Positions 19,260-24,490 of a stretch of 64,000 bases of DNA are shown piece after piece. The stretch's first letter is position 1; every line of letters starts with the position of its first letter. Source of the DNA: Bacteroidota bacterium (GTDB taxonomy: Bacteria; Bacteroidota; Ignavibacteria; UBA10030; UBA8401); NCBI GenBank assembly GCA_035506275.1, contig DATJPT010000019.1, positions 248,001 to 312,000 on the forward strand, read 5' to 3'. Made by a program: the position numbers and the translations under genes. Below the pieces are notes generated by a model. The model saw only the letters and a program-made list of their open reading frames with translations, ran no database searches and had not been told where the DNA came from.

Positions 19260-19553
19260 ATGAAAAAAGCATATGAACGAAAAATTTCATCTGAAGAAGC
19301 GAGGGAAGGGTATTTCCTCGTCCTGAAAAACAAGCTCTCGTATTTCCCGCCGGCCGGTTCGTTATTTTCAGTGAAGGTCGGCGCCAAGGAAAAGAAGGCA
19401 GCGGTCCAATCGTATCATTGTGAATGCCGGGGGCCGCAGGAACCCCATGAGCATTATTTTGTTCGATGGCCCGGCTTGGTAAAAGGGGACAGGATTATCA
19501 TTCGGAAAAGCAGCAGGCGTGAAAGTAGCTATTCAATTAGAATCGAAGAATAA
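19260..19553 (+). CDS. Small soluble protein, unknown
   Basis: The 97-residue product is basic, has no signal peptide, and contains two His/Cys clusters (SYHCECRGPQEPHEHYF) that could bind a metal. The start has GGAGAA at 19249-19254. It ends seven bases before the preferred start of the PDZ/SpoIIE gene, so the two may be translationally linked. No family recognised. Confidence 0.65.
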   Translation: MKKAYERKISSEEAREGYFLVLKNKLSYFPPAGSLFSVKVGAKEKKAAVQSYHCECRGPQEPHEHYFVRWPGLVKGDRIIIRKSSRRESSYSIRIEE

Positions 19554-19560
19554 TGCTTCA

Positions 19561-22194
19561 ATGAACTGGCTGAAGTCATATTTGTCAAAGCGAGGACACG
19601 CGTTTGCACTAGCCCTGGCGCTCGTCTATGCCGGTGCCACTCTTGTCTACAGCGTCATCTGGATGATCGACGCCCGCACGAAATCTGCGCTGTCTTCCGT
19701 CGAGCTTGGATTCGATACCGATTTTATTCCCGCAAGCGGATCACAGGCCGTAAAAAGCGTCTATCTCGACAGCCCCGCAGAGAAGGCCGGCCTGCAATCG
19801 GGGGATGAGATCGTAGCGATCGAAGGGCACGCGATCGATGACGCGGCCTATCTGAATAAAATTTGGAGTCAGCACGTACCCGGGGATTCGATTCATCTCA
19901 CGGTCAGCCGCTCAAGGGCAAATGCTCCGCTTCATCTTACGGGCGTTTTTCGCCAGAGGCAGTCTTCAACAGCGGAAGGTGGGCTCGCATTTGTGGCCGA
20001 TCAGGTGCGGAGTTCATTCCCCGTTCCATTTGTCATCGTTGGTCTCGTCGTCTTGTTCCTTCGCGTTGAAGATCGGACTGTGTGGATCCTTGCCCTCATG
20101 TTCGGCGGTTTTGCCGCTTCGCCCGGCTTTTCCAACGATCTTGCATTTGCCCCGGCTCTCCGTCCGTATGCGATGGCTTACAAAGCGATCTTCAGTGCGA
20201 TCCTCGCACCGTTGTTTTATCTCTTTTTCTCGGTTTTCCCGGTGCAGTCTCCGGTTGATCGCCGTCTGCCGTGGTTGAAGTGGGTATCGTTATTCCTCGG
20301 GTTCTCGTTTATGATCTCTGGATTTCGGACGGGGCAGTCGCTCCTTCCTCCTCCGTTCAACGCCATGGTGGGAGAGGTTCTTTCGGGAAAGATCTATGCT
20401 GTCTTTGCCCTCCTCTTTGTGGCGCTCGGGCTTTTTGCTCTCGGCACGAATTTCGCAGCCGGGGATGATGCTGGGGTGCGCAGAAAAATCCGCGTCATTT
20501 TTTGGGGATCCGCGGCCGGCATCATCCCGACGATCATCAGGGCCGGTGCAGAAGATTTCTTCGGCTTTCGGACGCCGACGTGGCTTGAAACGCTTCTGAC
20601 CGTCCTGTTGTTTTTGCTCCCCTTATCCTTCGCGTATGCGGTCGTAAAGCATCGGGTTCTCGAAATTCCTGTGCTGCTCAAACGAAGCGCACGGTATCTG
20701 CTTGTGCAGCGGGGCTTCACGATCCTTTTATCAGCCGTGAGCATTGCTCTCGTTCTTCTCTTTGCCCTTTCACTCTCTAATTACATCCGTTCTTCTTTGG
20801 ACATCACTCCTCCCTTTGCGATCGCCCTCGGGTCGGTTTTCGGAACGGTGCTGCTGTGGGGAGGGACGTCGGTGCACAGGCGTGTGAGCGGGACGATCGA
20901 CCGTGCGTTCTTCCGGAGCGCTTATGACGCACGTCTTATTCTCGAAAATCTCGCTGAACGGTCGGCGACCGCGAAAGACCGCCGGGAGTTAGCGGCCTTG
21001 TTGGAAGAAAACCTCACACAGGCACTCCACACCAACTCACTGTTCATCTATCTCCGCACCGGCGATGCCGCTCTGGAAGCAGTATCGGGAATGGTCCCGA
21101 AGGAGATCCGGGTCCTTTCGCCGGATGCCCCTTTTTTCGATCTCATGGCGGGGGGTAAAATATTGGAGTATGCCTCGACGGCGAAAGAAAAAGAACCGGG
21201 GATATCGCTGCTGGAGCCGCTCAGGCCTGAATGCATCATTCCGATGACCGGAAGGGAGGGGCGACTGGCCGGATTTCTCGTCCTCGGCTCTCGGCTTTCC
21301 GAAGAGCCCTACTCCGGCGAAGACCAACGGATGTTGATCTCGGTTGCGAAGCAGGCTGCGACCGCGCTCGAAAATATCTCGCTTGCCGAAGAGATTGCCG
21401 AGCGGATCGAGACGGAACAGCGGGTGGCCCGCGAGATGGAAATTTCGCGGCGCATTCTCGAAGCCGACAATGAGCGAAAAACGAAAGAACTGGATGAAGC
21501 TCGCGCGCTGCAGCTATCGATGCTGCCGGGGGCCGTTCCGGAAATTCCGGGGATTGAGATCGGAGTGTACATGAGGACCGCCACCGAAGTCGGCGGCGAT
21601 TATTATGATTTTGCCGTCGGCCACGACGGAACGCTGACCGTTGCGCTCGGCGACGCGACCGGGCATGGAGCGAAGGCCGGAACCATGGTCGTTGCCGCCA
21701 AAAGTCTCTTCAACGGTTTCTCCGATGCGCCGGATCTTTTGGAGATCTTTGAGAAGCTGACCGACAGCATCAAACGATTGAACATGCGGTCGATGTATAT
21801 GTCGATGCTGCTGCTTCGCATCAAAAGCAACACCGCTCTGGTGTCATCCGCCGGAATGCCCGCTCCGCTCATTTACAGGTCGGCGGAGGGGATCGTCGAA
21901 GAAGTGCCGCTGAAAGGGATGCCGCTTGGCGCTTTTCACGACTTTCCGTACGAAGAACGAAGATTAGAACTGCGGAAAGGGGATGCGGTCATCCTGATGA
22001 GCGACGGCTTCCCGGAATTATTTAATCCGGCGCAGGAGACGTTCGGCTATGCGCACGTGAAGGAGATTATCGCGGCAGCGGGGAACCGGTCGCCGCAGGA
22101 AATCATCGCATCGTTCGTAAAGGCCGCGGAGGAGTGGGCAAAGGGGACGCCCCAGAGCGACGACATGACCTTCGTCGTTCTGAAAATAACGTAG
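19561..22194 (+). CDS. PDZ - membrane - GAF - SpoIIE-type serine/threonine phosphatase
   Basis: The 877-residue protein starts with a membrane helix (about 14-37), then a periplasmic PDZ domain (about 50-120; VYLDSPAEKAGLQSGDEIVAI in outline), a block of membrane helices (about 155-400), a GAF-like region (about 440-600), a linking coiled coil, and a C-terminal PP2C/SpoIIE domain with EVGGDYYDF, LGDATGHGAKAG, MSDGFPELFN and QSDDMTFVVLK. These are the metal-binding aspartates of RsbU-type phosphatases, which dephosphorylate anti-sigma antagonists. An envelope signal read by the PDZ domain could thus control a partner-switching pathway. No RsbV/RsbW gene is adjacent. An upstream GTG at 19519 would overlap the previous gene; ATG 19561 is preferred. 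Confidence 0.88.
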   Translation: MNWLKSYLSKRGHAFALALALVYAGATLVYSVIWMIDARTKSALSSVELGFDTDFIPASGSQAVKSVYLDSPAEKAGLQSGDEIVAIEGHAIDDAAYLNKIWSQHVPGDSIHLTVSRSRANAPLHLTGVFRQRQSSTAEGGLAFVADQVRSSFPVPFVIVGLVVLFLRVEDRTVWILALMFGGFAASPGFSNDLAFAPALRPYAMAYKAIFSAILAPLFYLFFSVFPVQSPVDRRLPWLKWVSLFLGFSFMISGFRTGQSLLPPPFNAMVGEVLSGKIYAVFALLFVALGLFALGTNFAAGDDAGVRRKIRVIFWGSAAGIIPTIIRAGAEDFFGFRTPTWLETLLTVLLFLLPLSFAYAVVKHRVLEIPVLLKRSARYLLVQRGFTILLSAVSIALVLLFALSLSNYIRSSLDITPPFAIALGSVFGTVLLWGGTSVHRRVSGTIDRAFFRSAYDARLILENLAERSATAKDRRELAALLEENLTQALHTNSLFIYLRTGDAALEAVSGMVPKEIRVLSPDAPFFDLMAGGKILEYASTAKEKEPGISLLEPLRPECIIPMTGREGRLAGFLVLGSRLSEEPYSGEDQRMLISVAKQAATALENISLAEEIAERIETEQRVAREMEISRRILEADNERKTKELDEARALQLSMLPGAVPEIPGIEIGVYMRTATEVGGDYYDFAVGHDGTLTVALGDATGHGAKAGTMVVAAKSLFNGFSDAPDLLEIFEKLTDSIKRLNMRSMYMSMLLLRIKSNTALVSSAGMPAPLIYRSAEGIVEEVPLKGMPLGAFHDFPYEERRLELRKGDAVILMSDGFPELFNPAQETFGYAHVKEIIAAAGNRSPQEIIASFVKAAEEWAKGTPQSDDMTFVVLKIT

Positions 22195-22214: not shown

Positions 22215-22604
22215 TCAATTCTTTTTTGCTCCCTGGTCGATCCATTTTTTGATCACGGCAATCTCGTCGTCATCGAGCTTCTTTTTTGTCATCAACGGCA
22301 TCTGATCGCCGAACGGCGGCCCAGGCTTTAATTTCTTTACAAGGATACTTTCGTCCCCGTTTTTGGGAGCGACGGGCGTTCCGTGTTTTCCCCCCTTCAT
22401 GATATCCGAATACGTTTCCATGTAGAGTTCGCTCGGGTTTTCGCTGTCCGAGGCGTGGCATGGCAGGCAATGTTTTTTGATGATCGGAAAGACATCGTTC
22501 GCAAACGACACTGATCTTTTCTTTTGATGGGAATTTTCCTGTGCCGTCAGGAATGAAAGTCCGGCGAACACCGCGGCAAGGAAGAGTACGACGTACAGCC
22601 TCAT
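22215..22604 (-). CDS. Small periplasmic monohaem cytochrome c
   Basis: The 129-residue protein has a signal peptide (LFLAAVFAGLSFLTAQ) and one haem c site, CLPCH, preceded by SFANDVFPIIKKH. A Met in GDQMPLM is the likely second axial ligand. The pattern resembles the planctomycete-type small cytochrome domain. It is the last gene of a three-gene minus-strand module with a cytochrome lipoprotein and a haem-motif barrel. GAGGAG sits nine bases before the ATG. It probably carries electrons in the periplasm. Confidence 0.83.
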   Translation of the reverse strand: MRLYVVLFLAAVFAGLSFLTAQENSHQKKRSVSFANDVFPIIKKHCLPCHASDSENPSELYMETYSDIMKGGKHGTPVAPKNGDESILVKKLKPGPPFGDQMPLMTKKKLDDDEIAVIKKWIDQGAKKN

Positions 22605-22636
22605 TCTGGAATTCTCCTCGTCAATTATCCTGAGTA

Positions 22637-23290
22637 TTAGTTATTAAGCGCCCCTTGGGTGATCCAAAGAGAAATCTTGCCGATGGTCGCGTCGCTCAAA
22701 TACGGACCGTTCAGCGGCATACGGCTTCCGAAGCCCGCTGTTCCGCGCAGTTTTTTTATGATGACGCTCCCTTCACCGTTCCCGGGGGTGACCACCGGAC
22801 CATGATTGCTGTTTCCGCGCAGCAGGTGCGCATACGAGTCGAGAAACAGCCCCCCGTTCCCGCCGTGGCAGCCGGTGCATCCTGAGTTCTGAAAGATCGG
22901 GAAAACGTCGTTGGCAAAAGAGATCGTCGGAGCCGGCGTTCCACGAACTTCGAACGGCATGCCATTGCTTGCCGTACCGTTGACCGTGACGGAAACATTG
23001 CCGCTCTCGGCAGAAGCCGGCACCTTAACGTCGATCTCGACGGAGCTCCACGCATACACCGTATCCGCGATCGTTCCCCCGATCGAAACGACGCTCGATC
23101 CGCGGGTTGCTCCGAAATTTGTTCCGAAAATTCTCAACGTGTCTCCCGTAAATGCAGAATCCGGCTGCAGCGAGGTGATCGTCGGAACGACTGCGGGGAC
23201 AGCGACGGGGCTTCCCATATCGGTACATCCGGACACGATGGTCATCGTCAGGATGAAGATGCAAACGCATAGAATGTTCTTCAGAGCCAT
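22637..23290 (-). CDS. Lipoprotein with IPT/TIG domain and cytochrome c domain
   Basis: The 217-residue protein has a lipobox (TMTIVSGC, Cys near residue 22), an immunoglobulin-like IPT/TIG domain (about 35-115; PTITSLQPDSAFTGDTLRIFG in outline) and a cytochrome domain with CTGCH. The segment SFANDVFPIF before the haem site and RMPLNGP after it match the neighbouring 129-residue cytochrome, so the two domains are related. It is probably anchored to the outer membrane by its lipid. It lies 15 bases after the barrel gene and 32 before the small cytochrome. Confidence 0.83.
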   Translation of the reverse strand: MALKNILCVCIFILTMTIVSGCTDMGSPVAVPAVVPTITSLQPDSAFTGDTLRIFGTNFGATRGSSVVSIGGTIADTVYAWSSVEIDVKVPASAESGNVSVTVNGTASNGMPFEVRGTPAPTISFANDVFPIFQNSGCTGCHGGNGGLFLDSYAHLLRGNSNHGPVVTPGNGEGSVIIKKLRGTAGFGSRMPLNGPYLSDATIGKISLWITQGALNN

Positions 23291-23305
23291 GAATTCCCCG
23301 CGCCG

Positions 23306-24490
23306 TTATATGAAGAAATGGAAGATGATGTCAAATTCGTCGTTGTTGAGCTGGGTCGGCTGCTCCATGTTGAAACGGTACAACGGACGAACTTCGACGC
23401 CGCTCATGAGGAAAAATTCCGCACCGACAGTGACCCTGGATTCGCTGCCGGTCTTGAGATCTTTGTCGGGGTCGTAAAAATCGTATCCGAGCTTGGCGTC
23501 GACTCCGTTCACGAACATATAATTAAGCTCGGTGTACGACATGAACCCTGTCGTGGTGACGCCGGCGACCGGCGACTGAATGTAATCAAATTCGCCGTTG
23601 AGCGTGAGCGTTCTGAGCACGGTGATCGACCCGAATCCGCCGTAGAACATCGCCTTCTCGGTCGGGTCGGGATTCGGATCGTTGTAATACGAACCGCCGA
23701 AGTTGAGGTTAATATGCTCGGACTGGATCGTCGCATCTCCCCGCACCGAGATCGTTTTGAATTTCGTTGCCCCGGTTCCGTTTAACCCCGCATTCGGTGC
23801 CCCGTTGAACATTCCGACTTGCATCGAAAAAATGCTCGGAGAGATCCCCGCTTCTATTCCTGTCTGCTCTGCACGATCTCCGAACACCAGCCCTTGACGG
23901 TACATCGACAGCGCAGGGTTGATCGGGAAGTACGGCCCACCGCGGATGAATGCGGTATGGTCGTCGATCTTTGTGCCGTATGCCGGAATGAACTGTCCCA
24001 TTTTAAGATACCCATCCAGCGGCAAGACCTTCGCAAGTCCGAATACCTCGAAGCCGGAGTACAATCCTTTGTCCACGTACAGGAGGAACTGGCGGTTCAC
24101 TCTGTAATTCAGATACAGGTCTCCCTGCATTTGAAATAAGCTCGATGTCTTGCTGTTCATTTCGTAAAAATAAAGCGTGCGGAAATCGGCGCCGTAGGAG
24201 AGGTTGGGCGTGATAGCGGTGGAAAAGTCGTCGATATTTGTAATGTCCTCTTTGGCGGCCGCAACTTTCCCGTCGTCGCCGGTGTCGATGACGGTTCTGT
24301 ACGTGTGGATGGGAAGCTCTTCCCGGCCGTACGTCGAGCCGAATGTATTGCGCATTCCCTTACCCGTCGGATTAACGTGGCACGCCTGGCATTTCACGCC
24401 GACCCTGCTCGCAAATTTTGGGAGAGCGAAGAGGTCGGACGAACCGGCAGCCAGGACGACGGCAATAAACAGTGCGGCTGATCTTTTCAT
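23306..24490 (-). CDS. Outer-membrane beta-barrel protein with N-terminal haem c motif
   Basis: The 394-residue protein has a signal peptide (about residues 1-22) followed by GVKCQACHVNPTGKG, a single CxxCH haem site at residues 34-38, and then about 330 residues of alternating aromatic/polar strands ending in FDIIFHFFI, as expected for an outer-membrane barrel with a C-terminal aromatic residue. It leads the module with two cytochromes. A barrel that itself carries a haem motif, next to a cytochrome lipoprotein, suggests passage of electrons or reductants across the outer membrane. Covalent haem attachment is inferred only from the motif. GAGGAAG precedes the ATG. Confidence 0.8.
   Translation of the reverse strand: MKRSAALFIAVVLAAGSSDLFALPKFASRVGVKCQACHVNPTGKGMRNTFGSTYGREELPIHTYRTVIDTGDDGKVAAAKEDITNIDDFSTAITPNLSYGADFRTLYFYEMNSKTSSLFQMQGDLYLNYRVNRQFLLYVDKGLYSGFEVFGLAKVLPLDGYLKMGQFIPAYGTKIDDHTAFIRGGPYFPINPALSMYRQGLVFGDRAEQTGIEAGISPSIFSMQVGMFNGAPNAGLNGTGATKFKTISVRGDATIQSEHINLNFGGSYYNDPNPDPTEKAMFYGGFGSITVLRTLTLNGEFDYIQSPVAGVTTTGFMSYTELNYMFVNGVDAKLGYDFYDPDKDLKTGSESRVTVGAEFFLMSGVEVRPLYRFNMEQPTQLNNDEFDIIFHFFI

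Follow-up and report, generated by a model that had tools for sequence, protein, structure and literature searches.

The closest described counterpart of the locus analysed here is Cyc2, an Fe(II) oxidase and demonstrated cytochrome in which a cytochrome with one haem and a porin of 16 strands (modelled on OprP/OprO) form a single fused protein, and whose haem domain has been proposed to act as a periplasmic plug (PMC8406198). In the MtrAB, MtoAB and PioAB systems and in OmbB-OmaB-OmcB, a barrel and a periplasmic cytochrome are co-encoded; all of these systems use multihaem cytochromes, and the barrel has 26 strands in MtrB. FoxE of Rhodobacter is a soluble dihaem Fe(II) oxidase without a barrel.

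We studied three genes on the minus strand of a 64,000-nucleotide stretch of an Ignavibacteria genome (the window, i.e., the whole of the DNA analysed). The features are listed below.

23306–24490, minus strand: barrel gene P0001 (394 aa; signal peptide at approximately residues 1–22, haem segment at approximately 22–60, 16-strand barrel at approximately 97–393)
24377–24391, minus strand: CQACH, the predicted haem-attachment motif at barrel residues 34–38, read from the sequence within ALPKFASRVGVKCQACHVNPTGKGMRN, with C34, C37 and H38 invariant in 60/60 family members
23957–23959, minus strand: codon of the invariant barrel residue His178, in the β5–β6 loop (motif DDHTxxxR), with a putative role in haem or metal binding
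22637–23290, minus strand: P0002, a TIG-domain lipoprotein with a C-terminal PSCyt1 monohaem domain (217 aa)
22215–22604, minus strand: P0003, a small secreted PSCyt1 monohaem cytochrome (129 aa), the conserved partner in the window's order

The genes follow one another in the order barrel, P0002, P0003 with intervening gaps of 15 and 32 bases, and each product carries one CxxCH. Re-reading of the sequence reproduced the coordinates, strand and gaps of the first-pass annotation and its placement of CQACH at residues 34–38. The co-encoding of a barrel and a periplasmic cytochrome is shared with the MtrAB-type and OmbB-OmaB-OmcB systems; unlike in those systems, the haem motif is on the 16-strand barrel itself and its partners are monohaem, and the trio proteins include no multihaem cytochrome that could sit inside the barrel. 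Judging by eye from the translations, vWA and MoxR-type genes lie 109 bases upstream of the barrel gene, and a convergent gene on the opposite strand downstream of the cytochromes (19519–22194) resembles PDZ, membrane, GAF and PP2C/SpoIIE-type phosphatase sequences, its C-terminus being phosphatase-like. Neither the vWA/MoxR-type genes nor the phosphatase-like gene looks like a member of the unit. Promoter and terminator scans gave nothing beyond shuffled controls.

Relatives of the barrel were found in 115 of the 197 genomes of the class, and a phylum-wide draw indicated that full-length members are all but restricted to this class. Named relatives carry the labels Ignavibacteriae or Bacteroidetes, the nearest being DeMMO3_9 (70% identity). 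Pfam and NCBIfam held no usable family for the barrel, a sequence search of the PDB returned two designed repeat proteins and weak matches only, and the plasmids searched contained no relative. In a 60-row alignment, the haem segment follows the signature ALPRFAxxTGxKCxxCHVNPTGGGMRN, with C34, C37, H38, P41, G43, R47 and G51 invariant in all rows. Since C34, C37 and H38 are invariant in 60/60 relatives, the barrel CxxCH is not a chance occurrence; homologues near and far have it. Beyond the haem segment, only Met121 and His178 are invariant among residues with haem-ligand potential. The latter is retained even in the most distant relatives; it may act as the distal ligand of the haem or as a metal site in the pore.

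An AlphaFold2 model built from the 60-row alignment (pLDDT 83.7) showed 16 barrel strands, by our own count, from residue 97 onward; ahead of them, the CxxCH turn lies between two helices. The segment between strands 5 and 6 is long (168–208) and includes a short helix bearing His178, at moderate block-mean confidence (55–75). The constriction loop of porins sits between these two strands; Asp/Glu177 and Arg183 flank His178 at this position. The best solved match of the model in Foldseek was OprP (2o4v, E 1.2e-11), the fold being OprP/OmpC-like, and a search of BFVD structures yielded generic porins only. The model and its porin matches support the earlier description of P0001 as an outer-membrane barrel, and the modelled haem segment precedes the strands.

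The haem segment was compared with Cyc2 using yardsticks, i.e., proteins from the same phylum that carry the published Cyc2 motif AXPXFAR[QK][TY] (PMC8406198). In hhalign, the segment matched the Cyc2 profile at 97.7–97.8% (E 1.3e-12), versus 23% for PSCyt1, 3% for a dihaem family and ≤0.6% for shuffled and reversed control profiles. The barrel family model (A1) likewise retrieved Cyc2-motif proteins through the haem segment, with E-values of approximately 3e-6 to 8e-6. The first-pass annotation had stated that known porin–cytochrome systems use large multihaem cytochromes; Cyc2, a fused monohaem cytochrome–porin (PMC8406198) with a haem segment related to that of the barrel, contradicts this. 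Like Cyc2 (Acidithiobacillus ferrooxidans, Mariprofundus ferrooxydans PV-1; clusters 1–3), the barrel has a signal peptide and, behind it, a short N-terminal haem segment with a lone CxxCH, and joins this segment to a porin with 16 predicted strands and an OprP-like fold in one polypeptide. Its 394 aa compare with at least 365 residues for the fused porin of Cyc2, and OprP, its top PDB match, is among the templates reported for Cyc2 (PMC8406198).

Unlike Cyc2, the family lacks both AXPXFAR[QK][TY] upstream of CXXCH (0/60 members; the window barrel reads ALPKFASRV) and PXL approximately four residues after it (0/60), and it has an invariant His178 and other gene neighbours. CHxxPxG was present in 60/60 members and in none of the 15 yardsticks, which were chosen by the Cyc2 motif. 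By profile comparison, the barrel parts of the family and of Cyc2 are unrelated in sequence (2.6%), and the yardstick structure model was too poor (pLDDT 46) for a structural comparison. Because the haem segments are related but the Cyc2 motif and PXL are absent and CHxxPxG stands in their place, we regard the family, on these sequence characters, as Cyc2-like rather than Cyc2, and as a separate class-wide family. With the barrel parts unrelated, the fusion of haem segment and porin could be convergent with that of Cyc2.

The partner proteins agreed with their first-pass description as a lipoprotein cytochrome with a TIG domain and a small periplasmic cytochrome. P0002 has a lipobox (VSGC, residues 19–22, read from the sequence) and a TIG domain (PF01833, E 2.9e-11) that scores above its Pfam cut-off, and the haem domains of both proteins exceed the Pfam cut-off of 22 bits for PSCyt1 (PF07635), P0003 with 26.6 bits and P0002 only just, with 22.2 bits. 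In contrast to known PSCyt1 cytochromes, the domain is fused to TIG in P0002 and free in P0003, and both lie behind an outer-membrane barrel gene. A weak match of P0003 to one haem domain of FoxE (5mab, E 0.003) is too weak for a functional claim. The two cytochromes share 40% identity across 101 residues (E 1e-23), including SFANDVFPI and MPL, and the kinship proposed earlier from these motifs thus stands. A recent local duplication is contradicted by the phylogenetic tree, on which P0003 orthologues from across the order form a single clade (22 rows, support 99/98) separate from the lipoprotein cytochromes; since they form their own clade, the duplication is old. In five orthologues of the lipoprotein cytochrome (L003, L040, L044, L045 and L007), CX3CH, CX4CH or CX6CH replaces CxxCH in an otherwise conserved PSCyt1-like domain.

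Within the window's order, the barrel was detected in 72 of 98 genomes. Strong P0003 orthologues (E 1e-22 or better; genomes counted by hand) occurred in 63 of the 72 genomes with a barrel versus 6 of the 26 without (Fisher p 3e-9, a value that ignores shared ancestry, the genomes not being phylogenetically independent), and they were adjacent to the barrel in approximately 53 of 60 assessable cases (hand count). The cytochromes lie away from the barrel in genus g24 and one related genome (G537); in one g24 member (L172), they adjoin a cupredoxin–porin–kinase–regulator locus. The lipoprotein cytochrome is less constant, being often absent, located elsewhere or equipped with a different Ig-type domain. 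The conserved unit is the barrel with the soluble cytochrome P0003, a linkage that holds within the order; the lipoprotein cytochrome P0002, the third member of the trio described originally, is variable. Some genomes retain P0003 although they have no barrel. One is G089, whose P0003 orthologue comes immediately after the vWA gene, the intervening barrel gene being absent (L175, contig C6), an arrangement that suggests barrel loss.

Elsewhere in the class, the neighbours of the barrel differ by lineage. Partner classes were called by phmmer from seed proteins, and matches to the T9SS tail alone were disregarded. A cupredoxin gene lies directly downstream of the barrel in 4/4 loci of f8, and a gene for a dihaem CytoC_RC-like protein lies upstream in 13/13 loci of f11. 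In f9, 4 of 14 loci have a Rieske gene next to the barrel, and so do some loci of f10, f14 and f17; nine of 12 f13 loci encode a CxxCH protein that shares the haem-segment motif of the barrel and ends in a T9SS sorting tail. The phmmer partner searches identified no convincing redox neighbour in f15, f16 and f23. This repeated linkage of the barrel to chemically different electron carriers constitutes the strongest functional evidence.

Several further observations concern these neighbourhoods. Most f9 upstream genes (143–179 aa) were rejected as Rieske candidates; they encode small lipoproteins without cysteine motifs. In the f8 loci (L054–L057), the cupredoxin gene is followed by genes for an outer-membrane protein, a histidine kinase and a response regulator, and the same set adjoins the PSCyt1 cytochromes in g24 (L172), with the barrel elsewhere. 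Directly upstream of the barrel in L063, L064, L065, L070 and L133 is a gene for a CxxCH protein with Temptin_C (PF24784), a T9SS C-terminal tail and the haem-segment motif of the barrel, possibly a surface cytochrome that feeds the barrel. A membrane protein of 151–163 aa with a weak UPF0093/DUF2269 match is encoded beside the barrel, in divergent orientation, in L080, L128, L136 and L138 (f13, f15).

The host genome encodes two COX1-family haem-copper oxidases, cytochrome c assembly proteins and a separate multihaem-rich respiratory locus (L167, G000:C6:160000-179500), so a respiratory role of the trio is possible in either direction. The proteins of L167 contain 14, 13, 11, 6, 5 and 4 CxxCH motifs and are encoded alongside a cytochrome b, a Rieske-like protein and a protein of 453 aa that may be a barrel and has no haem motif; the locus is a candidate separate electron conduit.

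The invariant CxxCH, the predicted barrel fold, the relation of the haem segment to Cyc2 and the linkage to small redox genes, as seen in sequences and model, support the reading that we consider probable, namely that P0001 belongs to a distinct class-wide family of Cyc2-like outer-membrane porins that transfer electrons through a single haem and work with an exchangeable partner. In the arrangement that we infer, an N-terminal c-type haem segment, with covalently bound haem, would sit as a plug at the periplasmic mouth of the 16-strand porin. A small soluble donor or acceptor would enter the pore and swap one electron with the barrel haem, and P0003 (of class-I type, the distal Met probably being that of MPL) would ferry the electron through the periplasm, connecting the barrel haem with the respiratory chain in one direction or the other; P0002 may serve as an additional relay at a membrane. 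Analogy with Cyc2 points to Fe(II) as a possible substrate and favours oxidation of an outside donor as the direction; the host has two haem-copper oxidases. For the Cyc2 of PV-1, a potential of 208 mV has been reported. The outer-membrane conduit envisaged in the first-pass annotation is supported in part: its core, an electron-transfer barrel with a haem of its own and small periplasmic partners, has good support, and the trio as a unit and the lack of precedent fall away.

Electrons might instead flow outward, the barrel and cytochromes passing respiratory electrons to small soluble or colloidal acceptors outside the cell, such as humics or Fe(III) chelates. A single haem indicates no direction, Ignavibacteriales have been described as obligate heterotrophs (PMC8478452), and L167, with its up to 14 CxxCH per protein and its barrel-sized protein without a haem motif, would suit this possibility; the same locus would, however, make a second, minimal outward route redundant, and Cyc2, the nearest characterised relative, oxidises Fe(II) (PMC8406198), and we think outward flow unlikely. 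The main job of the barrel could also be transport: it might be a redox-gated or metal-binding uptake porin, with the haem or the DDHT pore motif as the sensor or binding site for a metal ion. Such a role would agree with the OprP/OmpC-like 16-strand fold and with the lineages in which the partner searches gave no convincing redox neighbour, and the invariant His178, grouped with Asp/Glu177 and Arg183 where porins have their constriction loop, would be apt for binding a metal or an anion. Transport, however, needs no invariant CxxCH, and in several independent lineage groups the neighbours are electron carriers rather than transporters, which makes this quite improbable to us.

The haem segment also matches the T9SS-tailed Temptin_C proteins (PF24784; 97.3% profile probability), a family named after a non-haem animal protein. 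The barrel CxxCH could accordingly be temptin-like and haem-free, a disulphide with a conserved histidine, and its linkage to cytochromes a matter of shared regulation only. H38 is nevertheless invariant along with both cysteines, the linkage recurs with varied redox carriers, and Cyc2, which is a demonstrated cytochrome (PMC8406198), is matched no less strongly; we judge a haem-free motif very improbable.

Within the preferred reading of a Cyc2-like electron-transfer porin, a more specific version can be put forward tentatively, although we lean against it. In this class-wide redox porin, which would be distinct from Cyc2, His178 would complete the coordination of the plug haem or bind Fe(II) beside it, and, as lineages diverged, carriers of unrelated type (monohaem c, cupredoxin, Rieske, dihaem c) would have replaced one another as the periplasmic partner. 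Should the preferred reading be right, single-haem outer-membrane electron transfer would be far commoner than motif-based Cyc2 screens indicate, and a common trait in a large, mostly uncultured bacterial group. The exchangeable partner would provide a natural experiment on the exit of electrons from such a porin. Mutation of the invariant histidine in the pore would allow a direct test of how one haem can serve an entire membrane.

The iron-oxidation genes called by FeGenie at the DeMMO sites include Cyc2-type genes, mainly of cluster 3 (dominant in D2–D6), and Ignavibacteriales are among the carriers of iron-oxidation genes (PMC8478452). Given these Cyc2-type genes and their carriers, CHxxPxG barrels may already be counted as Cyc2 in surveys. 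Where iron-oxidation calls in Ignavibacteria depend on Cyc2 matches of low score, the genes behind them may belong to a different family that is as yet uncharacterised. Textbook Cyc2-motif proteins (PSFARQTGMSCNxCHTIFPELNAFGRQFK) do occur in the same class, in G093, G145 and G191 (L114, L115 and L116), and G093 and G145 encode both a Cyc2-motif protein and a CHxxPxG barrel.
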